Shown in pieces: positions 1,553 to 7,474 of a stretch of DNA of 64,000 bases; within the stretch, counting starts at the first letter, position 1, and the number at the start of each line of letters is the position of its first letter. A program made the position numbers and the translations under genes. The notes beneath the pieces were generated by a model. The model was not told the DNA's origin, searched no databases, and was given only the letters and a program-made list of their open reading frames with translations. This stretch comes from Streptomyces sp. R44 (GTDB taxonomy: Bacteria > Actinomycetota > Actinomycetes > Streptomycetales > Streptomycetaceae). Location of the stretch: positions 7,410,501 to 7,474,500 of the forward strand of contig NZ_CP163444.1 of NCBI RefSeq assembly GCF_041053105.1, given 5' to 3'.

Positions 1553-2464
1553 ATGAAGATCGATCTGACGGACACCGACTCCAGCAAGATCAACAAGGCG
1601 ATCCTGCAGGGGCGCAGGGCCGTCGGCACACCCGCCGTCGGCGCCGTGCTCACCCTCGTCATCGTCACCGACGAGGAGAACGCCTACGACTCCGTCAAGG
1701 CGGCCAACGAGGCCTCCCGGGAACACCCTTCCCGCACCCTCGTCGTCATCAAGCGCCACGCCCGCACCCCCCGGGAGCGCTACGAGACCCGGCTCGACGC
1801 CGAGGTCCGGCTCGGCACCGACGCCGGCTCGGGCGAGACGGTCCTGCTCCGGCTGTACGGCGAACTCGGCGCCCGCGCCGACTCCGTGGTCCTGCCCCTG
1901 CTGCTGCCCGACGCGCCCGTCGTCGTCTGGTGGCCGGTCGACGCCCCCGAGGTGCCCTCCCGGGACCCGCTGGGCTCGCTCGCGCAGCGGCGGATCACCG
2001 ACATGTACGCGGTCGAGGACCCGCTCGCCGCCCTGGAGCGCCGTGCCGCCTCGTACGCCCCCGGGGACACCGACCTCGCCTGGACGCGGCTCACCCCGTG
2101 GCGCTCGATGCTGGCCGCGGCCCTCGACCAGGCGCCGCTCACCGTCACCTCCGCCGCCGTCGAGAGCGAGGCGGAGAATCCCAGCGCCGAACTCCTGGCC
2201 CGCTGGTTCGAGGTCCGGCTCGGGGTCGCCGTCGACCGGGTCGTCACCGACGGCCCCGTCGTCACGGCCGTGCGCATGGGCACGGCCGACGGCGAGATCC
2301 GCATCGACCGGCCCGAGGGCCCGGTCGCGCGGCTCGCCATCCCCGGCCAGCCCGGCCGGGTCCTCGCGCTGAAGGTCCGGACCACCGCGGAGCTGATCGC
2401 CGAGGAGCTCCGCCGCCTGGACCCGGACGAGGCCTATGCGGCGGCACTGCGGGGGCGCGCCTGA
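1553..2464 (+). CDS. opcA: OpcA, glucose-6-phosphate dehydrogenase assembly protein
   Basis: OpcA activates or assembles glucose-6-phosphate dehydrogenase, the entry enzyme of the oxidative pentose phosphate pathway. The 303-residue product starts MKIDLTDTDSSKINKAI and contains the family signatures LTLVIVTDE near residue 37, VVVWWPVDAP near residue 125 and a late RVLALKVRTTAELIAEELRR segment. In actinobacteria opcA normally sits between zwf and pgl. Here no pentose-phosphate gene is adjacent, so this looks like a second, stand-alone paralog. It ends just before a large palindromic element that separates it from a convergent methyltransferase gene. Confidence 0.88.
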   Translation: MKIDLTDTDSSKINKAILQGRRAVGTPAVGAVLTLVIVTDEENAYDSVKAANEASREHPSRTLVVIKRHARTPRERYETRLDAEVRLGTDAGSGETVLLRLYGELGARADSVVLPLLLPDAPVVVWWPVDAPEVPSRDPLGSLAQRRITDMYAVEDPLAALERRAASYAPGDTDLAWTRLTPWRSMLAAALDQAPLTVTSAAVESEAENPSAELLARWFEVRLGVAVDRVVTDGPVVTAVRMGTADGEIRIDRPEGPVARLAIPGQPGRVLALKVRTTAELIAEELRRLDPDEAYAAALRGRA

Positions 2465-2477
2465 ACCGCCGACCCCC

Positions 2478-2682
2478 GTGTGGGCAATCGTCCCGCTGGG
2501 CGGGACGGGTGGGCACACGGGACGGCGCCCTCTAGCGGCGCCTCCGCGTTCCGAGCCTGGACCCGCACCCGATGCGCGGCGCACGCGTGGTGCGGGTCCA
2601 GTTGCGTAAGCCTCTGGCGCCGGCAAGGGCGCCGTCCGTTGTGCCCACCCGTTCCGCCCCTTGCGGAACGCATGCCCACAAC
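2478..2682. repeat. Inverted pair of a Streptomyces-type intergenic repeat with central hairpin
   Basis: Two related units lie in opposite orientation. Unit A is at 2478-2542. Unit B, at 2616-2682, reads almost the same on the minus strand. Both contain a TGGGC core, a small GTTCCGC/GCGGAAC-type hairpin, GGGTGGGCAC and GACGGCGCC. Between them CTGGACCCGCACC (2557-2569) pairs with GGTGCGGGTCCAG (2589-2601). The whole 205-base block can fold as nested stems. It separates two convergent genes, so it can act as a bidirectional terminator. From memory such units recur in Streptomyces intergenic regions; that needs a genome search. Confidence 0.75.
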
Positions 2683-2702
2683 GGGCGGGGCGCGGGCCCG
2701 GG

Positions 2703-3473
2703 TCAGGTCCCTCGTGTGAACAGCAGCACGACGTCCGCCCCCCGCCTCACCCGGGGGACGTCCGGGTTCGGCAGGGCGAGCAGGCGTGACCTGGTCTCGT
2801 CCACCAGGCGCGTGGCCTCGCCGCCGACCGCCCAGGCGCCGGTGAACAGGCCGCGGGAGAGCGACGCGGCCATCGCCCGCGGTGACACCTGGAACGACGT
2901 GGGCCGCTCCGAGGCCGTCCCCTCGTAGACGAGGCCGTGGGCCGCGGCGATCGGGGCCAGCCACTCCGGGCCGTCGCGGCGGCTGCCCTCCGGATCGAGT
3001 CGGTTCTCCAACTCCCCGACGAGGAGGCCGATGTCGTCCGTCGGGCGCGTTCCGCCCGCCGGGATGACCAGATAGCGCCCGCCCGGCCGCAGGACCCGTC
3101 CGACCTCGGCCAGGACGGCCCGGTTGTCCGGTCCGGCGTGCAGCAGCCACGTCGACACCGCCTGGTCCACCGACCCGCTCTGTACCGGCAGCCGGCAGGC
3201 GTCGGCCACCGCGACCCGTGCGCCGAGCCGGTCCTTCGCCCGGGCGAGCATGCCGGGCGAGAGGTCGAGTCCGTGCACCGTGTGCCCGAGCGAGGTCAGT
3301 TCGGCCGCGACGATGCCCGTGCCCACGCCGATGTCGAGCACCGGGCGCGCAGGGTCGAGCAGCGGTGCCAGCATCCGGGCGAAACCCGCCGCCCGTTCCG
3401 TACCGCCGCGCGACTCGTCGTACTTCGGCGCGATCTCGTCGAACTCCGCGACCGACACCGTCCTCCCCCTCAC
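2703..3473 (-). CDS. Class I SAM-dependent methyltransferase
   Basis: This 256-residue protein has a Methyltransf_11-type Rossmann core. Motif I is VLDIGVGTGIVAAEL near residue 46, followed by the acidic HGLDLSPGM loop, VAVADACRLP and the post-motif LAEVGRVLRPGGRYLV. Methylation substrate is unknown. The GTG start at 3473 overlaps the stop of the upstream P450 gene by four bases (GTGA), so the two are translationally coupled. A second GTG at 3458, behind GGGGGAGG, is a possible alternative start that would shorten the product by five residues. Coupling to a P450 that diverges from the crosslinking P450 and its pentapeptide makes it a candidate tailoring enzyme, which is inference. Confidence 0.87.
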   Translation of the reverse strand: MRGRTVSVAEFDEIAPKYDESRGGTERAAGFARMLAPLLDPARPVLDIGVGTGIVAAELTSLGHTVHGLDLSPGMLARAKDRLGARVAVADACRLPVQSGSVDQAVSTWLLHAGPDNRAVLAEVGRVLRPGGRYLVIPAGGTRPTDDIGLLVGELENRLDPEGSRRDGPEWLAPIAAAHGLVYEGTASERPTSFQVSPRAMAASLSRGLFTGAWAVGGEATRLVDETRSRLLALPNPDVPRVRRGADVVLLFTRGT

Positions 3474-4696
3474 GCCTGCGGGGTGAAGGTCACCGGCAGC
3501 GTCGCCATGCCGCGCAGGATGCCCTCGCGCCGGCTCAGGTCCGCGTCCGGATCGGCGAGCCGGAGGTCGGGGAAGCGCCGCAGCAGGGTGCCGATCGCGA
3601 TCCTGGCCTCCGCGCGGGCGAGCGGGGCGCCCAGGCAGAAGTGCACACCATGGCCGAAAGCGAGCTGTTGCGGCACCTCGCGGCGGGCCACGTCGAGGAT
3701 GTCGGGACGGTCGTAGCGCGCCGGGTCGCGGTTGGCCGCGGCGAGTCCGATGATGATCATCTCGCCGGGCGGCACGGTGACCCCGCCGATCTCGTACGCG
3801 TCGACGGTGAAGCGCGCGACGCCCCGGCTCACCGGCCCCTCGTAGCGCAGGAGTTCCTCGATCGCGCCGGGCAGCAGCGAGGGGTCGTCGCGCAGCGCGG
3901 CGAACTGCTCGGGGTGGCGCAGGAGGGCGTGGACGCCGTTCGCGATGAGGCTCGCCGTCGTCTCGTGGCCGGCGAGCGTGAGCAGGATGGCCATGGCCGT
4001 CAGCTCGCGGTCGCTGATCTTCTCCTCGGCCTGCGCGGCACAGAGCGCGCTCAGCAGATCGTCCTTCGGGTCCGCCTTGCGCGCGGCGATCAACGGCTCG
4101 AAGAACTCGGTGAGTTCGGCTCGCGCCCGGGCTCCCTTGGCGAGTCGCTCGGGGGTGTTCGGCGGCATGATGAGGCCGACCGCGAGGCGGGCGAAGTCCG
4201 GCTGCCCCTCGGCCGGGATGCCGATGAGCTCGCTGAGCACGGCCATCGGCAGCGGCAGGGCGAACTCGGAGACCAGATCGGCCGATCCGCGCGCGGCGAT
4301 CGCGTCGAGGAAGGCGTCGGTGTGCGCCTGGACGCGCGGCGCGAGCGCCTCCACGCGGCGGAAGGTGAAGGCCTTCGAGACGAGGTTGCGCAGCCGGGTG
4401 TGGTCCTCGCCGTTGGCCACGAGCATGCTGGCCATCAGGACGTTGGTGCGCTCCTGGTGGGCCATCTCCTCCTCGAGGCCGTTGACCCCGACGGGGCTGC
4501 TGCTGAGGCGCGGGTCGGTGAGCGCGGCCACCGCCTCGTCGTAGCCCGTGACCATCCAGACTTCAAGGGTGGGATTCAGCCGGACGCGCTGGACGACGCC
4601 GTGCTCACGGATGCGTTCGAAAAGCGGGTAGGGGTTGGGCTGTTGAGCGACGTTTACCGGGACATCGTGAACGATTGTCTGGTCTTGACCGGTCAT
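3470..4696 (-). CDS. Cytochrome P450 (CYP107-like), coupled to methyltransferase
   Basis: This is a complete 408-residue soluble bacterial P450 monooxygenase. It has the I-helix oxygen-activation motif LAGHETT, the K-helix ExxR in EELLRYEG, and the heme-thiolate loop FGHGVHFCLGAPLARAE. All key residues are intact, so it should be an active hydroxylase or oxidase needing ferredoxin partners that are not encoded nearby. The ATG at 4696 has GGGGAG about nine bases upstream. It is divergent from a second P450 at 4935 and overlaps the downstream methyltransferase by four bases. Substrate is unknown; CYP107-type enzymes usually act on secondary metabolites. Confidence 0.93.
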   Translation of the reverse strand: MTGQDQTIVHDVPVNVAQQPNPYPLFERIREHGVVQRVRLNPTLEVWMVTGYDEAVAALTDPRLSSSPVGVNGLEEEMAHQERTNVLMASMLVANGEDHTRLRNLVSKAFTFRRVEALAPRVQAHTDAFLDAIAARGSADLVSEFALPLPMAVLSELIGIPAEGQPDFARLAVGLIMPPNTPERLAKGARARAELTEFFEPLIAARKADPKDDLLSALCAAQAEEKISDRELTAMAILLTLAGHETTASLIANGVHALLRHPEQFAALRDDPSLLPGAIEELLRYEGPVSRGVARFTVDAYEIGGVTVPPGEMIIIGLAAANRDPARYDRPDILDVARREVPQQLAFGHGVHFCLGAPLARAEARIAIGTLLRRFPDLRLADPDADLSRREGILRGMATLPVTFTPQA

Positions 4697-4934
4697 CTTC
4701 CGTAACTCCCCGAAGCTTTGTGAAAGATCTGAGGCAGGTAGTCATACCAGCCACCCCAGTTGCGTGGTAGCGTCACCGGCGCTCGGCTCGGATGATGTAC
4801 GGGGAAGGACCGGCGAACCGCCGGTGAAGCACCAAACGAGGCGTTCCACCCACCGGTGTTCCGGCGTCTCGTTCGCTCGACTCGGAAAGCAGCCAAGGCC
4901 TCAACCAGGCCCGATGCACAGGGGGAGACGTTTC
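4697..4934. promoter_or_regulatory. Divergent promoter region between two P450 operons
   Basis: These 238 bases separate the two divergent P450 genes and must hold both promoters. The stretch near 4697-4745 is clearly lower in GC than its surroundings. On the minus strand an open frame ends at 4693 with its TGA overlapping the first P450's ATG. Its last 27 codons, from a GTG at 4776, encode an aromatic-rich tail including NWGGWYDYLPQIF. No convincing ribosome binding site precedes that GTG and the codon usage is not Streptomyces-like, so I do not call it a gene, but it deserves testing. Confidence 0.5.
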
Positions 4935-6125
4935 GTGGAGCAAGCGGCAGCCGTGGACCCGATTCTGGATCTGGCCCGTCCGTCGATCCTGCGGAACCCC
5001 TACCCGGCCTACGCCCGGCTGCGGGACAGCACCCCCGTCTTCTGGCACGAACTGCTCGGCTCCTGGGTCCTGACGCGCCACGCCGACTGCCTCGCCGTGC
5101 TCACCGACAGCAACCGTTTCGCCTCCGACTGGCGCCGCGCCGGCGAGGACATCCCCGCGCCGCTGCTCAGCGTCCAGACCCTCGACCCGCCGGAGCACAC
5201 GGCCATCCGGCACCTGCTGCTCGACGGCTTCCGCGCCCAGGACCGCCAGGCCCTGCACGACGGTCTGGAGCACCGGATCGCGGACCTGCTCGCCGAGCTG
5301 GCCGAGCGGCCCTCCTTCGACCTCGTCGGAGAGCTCGCCGAACCGGTCGCCCTCCGGTTCGTCACCGCCTTCCTCGGGGTCCCCGCGCCCGAACTCGACT
5401 GGTTCGTGCCCATGTCCCGTACCGTCGTCGACGGCATGGACGCCGGGCTCTGGCCCGAGAAGCACGAGCCGGCCGTCGCCGCCCGCGCCCGGCTCGCCGA
5501 GTACGCCGGAGGATGGCTCGCGGATCCACCCAAGGAAGGGCTGATCGCGTACGTCGCCGAGCACGCGGCGGACAGCGGCGTGGCAGAAACGGTTCTGCGG
5601 AACAGTCTGCGCGCGGTCCTCCACGCCGGATACGAATCCGCCTCCCGGCTCCTCGGCAACGCCGCGGCCGCCCTCCTCACCACCCCCGGCGCGCTCGCCG
5701 CGTTCCGGGCGAGCCCGGCCACGGCCGTGGACGAACTCATGCGGTACGACGCACCCGTCCAGGCGGACGCCCGGGTCTGCGTCACCGACACCGAACTGGG
5801 TGGCGTCACCCTCAAGGCGGGTGATCCGGTCACGCTCCTCCTGGGCGCGGCCAACCACGACCCGCTGCGGTTCGACCACCCCACAGAGCTGCGACTCGAC
5901 CGCGCCCCGAACCCGCACCTCGGGTTCGGACGCGGGGCCCATGCCTGTCTGGGCGCGTCCATGGCGATCCGGCTCGCCGGATCGGTCCTCGGGGCCCTGG
6001 CCAGGGACTACCCGGACGCACGGGCGGTCGCGGAACCGGACCACCGGCGCAATCTGACCCTCCGCGGTCTCGACCGCTTCGAGGTCACCCTGCGCCCACG
6101 AGCGGGGGAGGAGGTTCGACCATGA
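4935..6125 (+). CDS. Cytochrome P450, likely biarylitide-type peptide crosslinking enzyme
   Basis: This 396-residue P450 is complete: ExxR in DELMRYDA, and heme loop FGRGAHACLGAS with the cysteine ligand near residue 338. The I-helix is unusual, reading AGYESAS near residue 230 where most P450s have AGxE/DTT, so the conserved threonine is replaced by serine. The GTG start at 4935 follows GGGGGAGA with good spacing; an ATG at 4914 is a weaker alternative. The stop overlaps the ATG of a five-codon gene by four bases. In biarylitide pathways (BytO with BytA) a P450 couples two aromatic side chains of a pentapeptide such as MRYYH. The neighbouring peptide fits that pattern, so I infer the same role here. 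It could instead be an ordinary oxidase. Confidence 0.85.
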   Translation: MEQAAAVDPILDLARPSILRNPYPAYARLRDSTPVFWHELLGSWVLTRHADCLAVLTDSNRFASDWRRAGEDIPAPLLSVQTLDPPEHTAIRHLLLDGFRAQDRQALHDGLEHRIADLLAELAERPSFDLVGELAEPVALRFVTAFLGVPAPELDWFVPMSRTVVDGMDAGLWPEKHEPAVAARARLAEYAGGWLADPPKEGLIAYVAEHAADSGVAETVLRNSLRAVLHAGYESASRLLGNAAAALLTTPGALAAFRASPATAVDELMRYDAPVQADARVCVTDTELGGVTLKAGDPVTLLLGAANHDPLRFDHPTELRLDRAPNPHLGFGRGAHACLGASMAIRLAGSVLGALARDYPDARAVAEPDHRRNLTLRGLDRFEVTLRPRAGEEVRP

Positions 6126-6139
6126 AGTACTGGCACTGA
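6122..6139 (+). CDS. Five-codon minimal RiPP precursor gene, product MKYWH (biarylitide class)
   Basis: The sequence directly encodes Met-Lys-Tyr-Trp-His and a TGA stop in 18 bases. Its ATG overlaps the stop of the upstream P450 (ATGA), and a strong GGGGGAGGAGG ribosome binding site ends seven to eight bases before it, still inside the P450 reading frame. Biarylitide precursors (bytA) are 18-base genes of the form M-x-Y/F-x-H, for example MRYYH, placed beside a dedicated P450. Tyr3 and His5 here occupy the crosslinked positions, Lys2 replaces Arg and Trp4 replaces Tyr. The expected product is a cyclic Tyr-Trp-His tripeptide after P450 coupling and loss of the first two residues. Tandem placement after the P450, rather than before it, may also be a variation. 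Expression and product are unproven. Confidence 0.8.
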   Translation: MKYWH

Positions 6140-6208
6140 AACCAGCGAGCGTGACGCCCGTCCGGGAGGCGGGCGGCACGCCGGTGTACGGCTCACGTGC
6201 ACCCCGCC

Positions 6209-6240
6209 GGAGCCCGGGCCCGCTGCGCGGTCCGGGCTCC
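6209..6240 (+). terminator. GC-rich hairpin terminator after the pentapeptide gene
   Basis: GGAGCCCGG (6209-6217) pairs perfectly with CCGGGCTCC (6232-6240) around a 14-base loop. It lies 70 bases past the pentapeptide stop and just before the end of the convergent esterase gene, so it can stop transcription from both sides. There is no U-tract, as is common in Streptomyces. Confidence 0.7.
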
Positions 6241-6251
6241 GGCCCCTTCCG

Positions 6252-7220
6252 CTACCGGAGCCTCCCCGGCAGCCAGCGGAGCTGCGCCGCCTGCTGGAAC
6301 GTTCCGCCGCCCTCGTGGTCGTTGAAGTCGTACAGCTCGATCGCCTTCTCCTCCGCGGCGTACGCGTTGAAGGCCGCGAACACCGTCGACGGCGGGCACG
6401 TCTCGTCCTCCAGGGCCGTCGAGAACAGGGCCGGGGCCGTGGCGCGGGCCGCGAAGTGGACGCCGTCGAAATAGGCGAGGGTCTCCCTGACCCGCTGCAC
6501 CCGGCCGCGGTGCGTCTTCAGGTAGTTGCCTATCTCGCGGTACGGCATGCGGTCCGTGATCGTCGTCGCGCGCGGGAAATCGCACAGGAACGGGACGTCC
6601 GGCGCGACCGCCACCAGATTCCGCACGAGACCCGCCACCGCCAGCGTGATGCCGCCGCCCTGGCTCCCACCCGTCACCGCCGTACGCCCCGCGTCCACCA
6701 GGGGATGCGAGCGGGCCGCCTCGACGGCGCGCACCGCGTCCGTGAAGACCCGCCGGTAGTAGTAGGCGTACGGGTCCTCGACGCCGCGCGTCATGAAGCC
6801 CGGGAACGAGGGCGCGCTGCCCACCGGATCCGGGGTGTCGCCGGTGGCCCAGCCGCTGCCCTGCCCGCGCGTGTCCATCACGAAGTGCGCGAACCCGGCC
6901 GAGGCCCAGAGCAGATGCGTGTGCGGAAGGCCCCGCCCGCCGCCGTACCCGAGGAACTCCACCACCACGGGCAGCGGTTCGGACGTCCCGGCCGGCAGCA
7001 CGAACCACCCCTTGACCGGGTGCCCGCCGAACCCCGCGAAGGTCACGTCGTACACCTCCACCGTGGCCAGCCCCGTCGCCACGGGCTCGAAACGTGCGTC
7101 CAGCTCGTGCGCGCGGGCCTCGTCGAGGGTCTTCGTCCAGAAGGCGTCGAAGTCCTCGGGCTCCACCGACGCGCTGCGGTAGGTGCGGAGCCGGTCGACG
7201 GACAGGTCGAACTGAGTCAT
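6252..7220 (-). CDS. Acetylxylan esterase / cephalosporin-C deacetylase family (CE7)
   Basis: This 322-residue alpha/beta hydrolase of the AXE1/CE7 family deacetylates xylo-oligosaccharides and related esters in the cytoplasm. The nucleophile lies in VTGGSQGGG, the acid in ALEDETCPPS, and the histidine in DFNDHEGGG. The oxyanion-region pattern VMDTRGQGSGW is also typical. Length matches the family (about 320), and there is no signal peptide, as is normal. The ATG at 7220 gives MTQFDLSVDRLR, the usual family start; the frame is open further upstream but that part looks non-coding. It is monocistronic and convergent with the P450/pentapeptide unit. Confidence 0.92.
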   Translation of the reverse strand: MTQFDLSVDRLRTYRSASVEPEDFDAFWTKTLDEARAHELDARFEPVATGLATVEVYDVTFAGFGGHPVKGWFVLPAGTSEPLPVVVEFLGYGGGRGLPHTHLLWASAGFAHFVMDTRGQGSGWATGDTPDPVGSAPSFPGFMTRGVEDPYAYYYRRVFTDAVRAVEAARSHPLVDAGRTAVTGGSQGGGITLAVAGLVRNLVAVAPDVPFLCDFPRATTITDRMPYREIGNYLKTHRGRVQRVRETLAYFDGVHFAARATAPALFSTALEDETCPPSTVFAAFNAYAAEEKAIELYDFNDHEGGGTFQQAAQLRWLPGRLR

Positions 7221-7474
7221 GGAAACCGCCTGGTGAGTGAGGCTTTGTTCGAAATACCGACCGGTCGCCCCGGCCGCTCCCACCCTAGGGCGCGCCCCCG
7301 GCGATTCATATACGTGAACCCTCCGGGGTCCGGCCGGGGTCCGCCCGGGCGGACACTCCGCGCGGTGAACGCCGCGAGAACACCACCTGGCCGTCAGTCG
7401 TGACATCCTCGGACGAACCGCCCACGCCGACGTCCCGCTGTGGGCTTTCCTCGTCTCCTGTGCGGAGGGATGCC

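Follow-up and report, generated by a model that had tools for sequence, protein, structure and literature searches.

A five-codon gene overlapping the stop of a BytO-type P450 gene in Streptomyces: a likely biarylitide precursor beside a conserved divergent second P450

The window analyzed here, a stretch of 64,000 nucleotides from Streptomyces sp. R44, contains an 18-bp gene for the pentapeptide MKYWH at the end of a gene for a BytO-type cytochrome P450 (Table 1). MKYWH is very probably the whole precursor of a biarylitide, and the P450 encoded upstream of it is predicted to join Tyr3 to His5. The pair is a biarylitide pathway of an already known type with the pentapeptide gene behind the enzyme gene; a July 2026 publication (PMC13417212) already describes the MKYWH motif and the Tyr-His cross-link that a BytO homologue makes, and these Streptomyces loci are likely among the 277 clusters of that work. 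We observe two architectural twists: the precursor gene follows the P450 gene, and a second, divergently oriented P450 is conserved beside the pair, in most loci together with a methyltransferase. Neither the downstream precursor nor the second P450 is described in the main-text sections of PMC13417212.

Table 1. Features of the MKYWH locus in the window
Feature	Position	Strand	Description and basis
bytA-like 18-bp precursor gene	6122..6139	+	ATGAAGTACTGGCACTGA (ATG-AAG-TAC-TGG-CAC-TGA), MKYWH-stop
Ribosome binding site of the pentapeptide gene	6104..6114	+	GGGGGAGGAGG, inside the P450 3' end
BytO-type cytochrome P450	4935..6125	+	396 aa, GTG start; structure searches, trees, Pfam PF00067
Divergent intergenic region	4697..4934	.	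Likely shared regulation; conserved blocks GTAGTCATACCA and GCGTGGTAGCGTC
Divergent second P450	3470..4696	-	408 aa, CYP107/PikC-like, predicted tailoring enzyme; nearest 5cje, PikC
SAM methyltransferase	2703..3473	-	256 aa, GTG start, possible tailoring enzyme; Pfam Methyltransf_11/25

An earlier note on this DNA had proposed an MKYWH open reading frame (ORF) that overlaps the P450 stop, follows the P450 gene, and is preceded by a ribosome binding site. The sequence and its coordinates agree on all three counts: the P450 stop and the pentapeptide start share four bases (ATGA, 6122-6125), and GGGGGAGGAGG lies 7 nt 5' of the ATG, with a purine-rich run, differing by small changes, at the same position in 21/21 aligned sequences. 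With its stop codon, MKYWH has the form of an 18-bp gene for a five-residue M-x-aromatic-x-aromatic/His precursor. The note's figure of about 5 in 100,000 for a chance occurrence is arithmetically sound (2/64 x 2/64 x 3/64) but was derived post hoc, and the comparative data far outweigh this uniform-codon estimate. Directly 3' of the pentapeptide gene, hairpins are predicted at 6148-6205 that possibly act as a terminator; the fold is only weakly better than that of shuffled sequences (z -2.06, with 5/200 shuffles equally good). No terminator was found in a scan of 4600-6300, and Rfam gave no matches on 2400-7400.

The strong part of the case against a chance ORF is co-occurrence. Of 392 sampled genomes from the window's genus, 45 match the P450 at E 1e-60, and 13 of these reach at least 92% identity; the ATGAARTAYTGGCAYTRA pattern is found in exactly those 13 genomes, always at the P450 end (13/13), and a scrambled MKWYH pattern is found in 0/392. 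A scan of genome contigs yielded a second sample of 59 loci, in which MKYWH stands at the P450 end of all 19 close orthologues (L001-L019, 81 to 96% identity, all named Streptomyces). The MKYWH start overlaps the P450 stop or begins two bases after it in the 18 loci found by script; L019, missed by the script because indels in that assembly break the P450 frame, was read from the sequence and has the same 18 bases. Among 38 ordinary P450 loci (L022-L059), no M-x-aromatic-x-aromatic pentapeptide was found on the P450's strand within 500 bp of either end. The two samples have eight assemblies in common and are therefore not independent. Co-inheritance is thus without exception in both, a tight gene linkage that answers the earlier note's proposal to search P450 neighborhoods for a conserved pentapeptide ORF.

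The assembly of Streptomyces diastatochromogenes ATCC 21481 (L019/L079 in the locus sets and G224 in the genus sample) has a P450 gene split by short indels and an intact 18-bp gene; in G224, the motif lies 10 nt past the matched piece of the P450. The split is probably a sequencing error, and decay of the P450 is an alternative that might also account for it.

Across 21 sequences (the window, L001-L019, and L123), 0/18 motif bases vary, as against 15/24 bases upstream and 17/18 downstream, a flank variability that is somewhat inflated because the flank comparison was ungapped. The same three codon types show synonym changes in 26/340 unaligned comparisons in the P450 genes of 17 loci; since these codon types rarely change in the P450 genes too, synonymous constancy alone is weak evidence.

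The P450 itself is predicted from its sequence to be the Tyr-His cross-linking enzyme. In sequence searches, its best solved relatives are the RufO entries 8spc, 8spp, 9eby, and 9m47 (E about 1e-104), followed by P450Blt (8u2m; E 3e-92). The identities of the RufO and P450Blt structures are those given in PMC12186263 and PMC12951456, and 9m47 appears to be RufO on the strength of a near-identical alignment. NCBIfam gave only below-cutoff P450 matches to this protein, and plasmid records contain four matches at 41 to 47% identity. A class-wide sample contains a relative at E 1e-75 in 9/394 genomes; two of these lie outside the genus and have the pentapeptides MFYDH and MRYYH.

A 42-row tree, built from the window, nine of the 19 named MKYWH loci, L123, 24 other relatives, RufO, and six ordinary P450s (the window's second P450 and five others), splits the window P450 and 35 kin from the ordinary P450s at 100/99. 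The same split appears at 100/100 in a 38-row tree from which four long-branched rows were removed, with a long-branch warning for ordinary P450s joining the family in both trees. The MKYWH P450s fall into a single clade (100/100 in each tree), and RufO groups apart from it with L082 and L086. RufO is the sole characterized enzyme in these trees, which are without AchB and the BytO of Planomonospora, and P450Blt was compared by sequence search alone. The trees and the solved matches place the window P450 in the BytO/P450Blt/RufO family, and the two splits rule out membership among ordinary monooxygenases. The earlier note had suggested placing the P450 in a tree to check its reading of a biarylitide-type minimal pathway; that reading is supported, as the P450 clusters with RufO and with P450s adjoining MxYxH/Y genes, hence in a pentapeptide-linked family, and its orthologues keep the pentapeptide.

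The active-site residues point in the same direction. Peptide cross-linking by P450Blt is under the control of A231, H234, and E238 in the I helix, and S239 is involved in binding (PMC10929621); H234 or its equivalent contacts His5, with Val or Leu at this position in enzymes forming C-C bonds (PMC12951456). When positions are mapped through RufO numbering in the alignment, P450Blt A231, H234, E238, S239, and V169 correspond to Ala, His, Glu, Ser, and Val in the window P450, so that the cross-linker residues His234, Glu238, and Ser239 are all matched. The A231 equivalent varies within the clade, being Val in L014 and L016 and Thr in L123. Asp169 and Val240 of RufO have been tied to nitration by its authors (PMC12186263); the corresponding residues of both the window P450 and P450Blt are Val and Ser. 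A linked nitric oxide synthase, the other mark of RufO-type nitration, was not found by Pfam or NCBIfam among the four conserved genes.

With respect to the position of the precursor across the family, the sister clade of the MKYWH P450s comprises five P450s with MRHAH or MRHVH (94/96 in the 42-row tree and 98/97 in the 38-row tree), and the pentapeptide gene is downstream of the P450 in both clades. Outside the MKYWH clade, a survey of 22 loci of the family, drawn from the genus and class-wide matches and leaving 18 weaker genus-sample matches aside, found a pentapeptide in 19, downstream in five (the MRHxH set) and upstream in 14; L086, L096, and L128 have no pentapeptide within about 1.5 kb. 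Upstream pentapeptides are also seen in the two distant relatives with names, Lentzea L020 (MRYAY) and Sorangium L021 (MKYCW). Searches restricted to the upstream side would overlook both the MKYWH clade and its MRHxH sister. The MRHxH loci (L080, L081, L083, L084, and L085) belong to the same genus, with two pentapeptide copies in L081; their P450s have Gln at the His234 and Glu238 positions, and they are likely a His-x-His biarylitide group, judging from these sequences. In L082, a RufO-like P450 with Asp169 and Val240 has an MRYLH gene about 1.34 kb upstream; since it also pairs with RufO in the trees, L082 is likely a rufomycin-type locus. The MRYAY loci L020, L089, L091, and L095 each have two tandem BytO-like P450s.

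The second P450 starts 238 bp upstream of the BytO-type P450 on the opposite strand. Its nearest relatives, 5cje and PikC, are what we take to be the CYP107 group. It adjoins the BytO-type gene in 19/19 named loci (84 to 100% identity; partial in L017, at a contig end), and its orthologue at E 1e-140 occurs in exactly the same 13/392 genus genomes. Much of this co-occurrence may reflect shared descent in one species group and therefore speaks for linkage, not function. The methyltransferase gene, which overlaps the stop of the second P450 by four bases, was matched in 14/19 named loci (in L019 at just 54% across 194 aa); L007, L009, L012, and L013 lack it beside the pair, and in L017 the contig ends before it. 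The view that the five-codon gene and the P450 form a minimal pathway thus holds for the pair, but it had missed the conserved second P450 and methyltransferase.

In the intergenic region between the two P450 genes, for which 14 of the 21 sequences were aligned, block GTAGTCATACCA (4738-4749) is conserved in 13/14 and block GCGTGGTAGCGTC (4762-4774) in 14/14. The two blocks, spanning 4738-4774, are operator-like. A scan of 4600-6300 for a sigma-70 consensus gave no match.

The limits of the conserved unit are seen most sharply in two genomes, L015 and L016, in which DNA homology runs from the methyltransferase (2713) to 6140 and 6151, respectively, and covers the four-gene block only, within the 4-kb flanks examined and counting matches over 150 bp. 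In L014 and L017, homology breaks at 6143, and other stretches of the neighborhood match elsewhere in those loci. Since homology stops at 6140-6151 in L014-L017, a conserved gene downstream of bytA was dropped as a candidate. Six ORFs of L015 and L016, five of them downstream of bytA, had no Pfam match; among six more compared with Pfam, the downstream ones comprised a LysR-domain ORF in L015 and two MFS-transporter ORFs in L016, which are not shared, together with an unmatched ORF in L015. By Pfam, the neighboring genes are one of the acetyl xylan esterase family, encoded downstream on the other strand, and an OpcA gene on the far side of the methyltransferase.

From these observations, we infer the following pathway. 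Translation of the pentapeptide would be coupled to that of the P450 through the ribosome site inside the P450 end and the ATGA overlap. The P450 would then bind the pentapeptide by Met1-Lys2 and link Tyr3 to His5 around Trp4, most likely from a Tyr ring carbon to His N-tau. An unlinked host protease would remove Met-Lys to leave a cyclic Tyr-Trp-His (calculated [M+H]+ 503.20, or 545.21 with N-acetylation), which the divergent CYP107-like P450, together with the methyltransferase where present, might modify further. Within the conserved block, we identified neither a protease nor an exporter or redox partner.

Whether the 18 bases encode a precursor at all can be doubted on the grounds that the motif is tiny, that the post hoc chance estimate is weak, and that the same slow-changing codon types in the P450 genes lead one to expect some constancy. 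Even so, we give hardly any credence to a fortuitous ORF at the overlap or to a short leader that regulates a downstream gene: the motif is exactly conserved in 21 sequences with changing flanks, it co-occurs perfectly with one P450 clade, and other pentapeptides, MxYxH/Y and MRHxH, accompany sister P450s. A leader ORF is further at odds with the lack of a conserved plus-strand gene after it, homology ending at 6140-6151 in L014-L017. The ORF is not a chance one, the ordinary loci (0/38), the scrambled control (13/392 versus 0/392), and the 18-base invariance all rejecting that origin.

Accepting MKYWH as a precursor, its P450 could be RufO-like, nitrating Tyr3 and supplying nitrotyrosine with no cross-linking. 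We consider this very improbable: RufO entries are closer than P450Blt among solved sequences, but RufO clusters with L082 and L086 outside the MKYWH clade, its Asp169 and Val240 (PMC12186263) are replaced by Val and Ser in the window enzyme, and the four conserved genes come without a nitric oxide synthase. Nitration was dropped as the main reading on the residue alignment. It is also rather unlikely that the enzyme cross-links MKYWH through another bond, either C-C or a C-O bond to Trp or His. Several bond types, dependent on enzyme and peptide, are reported among biarylitide P450s (PMC13417212, PMC10929621), and AchB is outside our trees; against this, C-N bonding has been linked to His at the H234 position and C-C bonding to Val or Leu there (PMC12951456), and AchB forms C-N on the same peptide (PMC13417212).

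Beyond the Tyr-His biarylitide reading preferred here, we see about an even chance that the locus encodes a two-P450 biarylitide, in which the second P450 oxidizes Tyr-Trp-His (for example, at Trp4), the methyltransferase caps the product, and the precursor has been relocated; the roles of these two enzymes are guesses. If true, an unrelated second P450 would complete the biarylitide, in a clade whose precursor gene has moved behind the enzyme gene. PMC13417212 names sulfotransferases, Pgm1 ligases, nitric oxide synthases, an amidinotransferase, and a beta-hydroxylase among tailoring genes, and PMC9113118 mentions methyltransferases close to biarylitide pairs. A search of the main text of PMC13417212 turned up no second P450 in a biarylitide cluster, and none of the literature titles and abstract openings screened describes a two-P450 biarylitide cluster.

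The MKYWH gene is a clear case among the smallest genes known, backed by co-inheritance and invariance, and it lies within the 3' end of an enzyme gene, a place that gene finders pass over. MKYWH pathways are widespread and little explored, and the conserved second P450 and methyltransferase are a direct lead to their finished product.

Among known systems, atropopeptides of the tryptorubin type are defined by a longer leader-core precursor and a P450 of their own clade; the precursor in the window has five residues. The myxarylin genes bytA-bytO-bytZ of Pyxidicoccus (PMC8708641) combine a pentapeptide, a P450, and a SAM methyltransferase in a small cluster, as does the window. The myxarylin methyltransferase gene shares one operon with the other two, in the order A-O-Z, whereas that of the window is in a divergent operon behind the second P450 and is missing in some relatives. 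The bytA-bytO pair of Planomonospora (Zdouc et al.; PMC9113118) likewise has an 18-bp precursor closely linked to one P450, and the two genes are enough for product in Streptomyces coelicolor; its YYH/YFH cores, C-C biaryl bond, and N-acetylation (PMC8708641) differ from the window, where the core is YWH and the precursor comes after the P450. RufO (8spc, 8spp, 9duj, and 9eby), acting on MRYLH, offers the closest solved sequences and a pentapeptide substrate like that of the window, but it nitrates Tyr and has Asp169/Val240 in place of Val/Ser. P450Blt (8u2m), also with MRYLH, is matched by the window P450 at A231, H234, E238, S239, and V169 and makes the C-N Tyr-His cross-link predicted here, although it tolerates a bulky position 4 poorly (PMC12951456, PMC13417212) and this position is Trp in the window. 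Judged by the peptide, the nearest counterpart is AchB of Actinomadura hibisca (PMC13417212), a BytO-homologous P450 with the identical pentapeptide MKYWH. The main-text passages on AchB mention neither a stop-overlapping precursor nor a divergent second P450, both of which are present in the window. In vivo studies of AchB were unsuccessful, and in vitro it cross-links Nle-KYWH from Tyr to His-N-tau, with a loss of 2 Da (746.4 to 744.4; PMC13417212); on this precedent and the residue pattern, we therefore read the two window genes as encoding a biarylitide precursor and the cyclase that acts on it.
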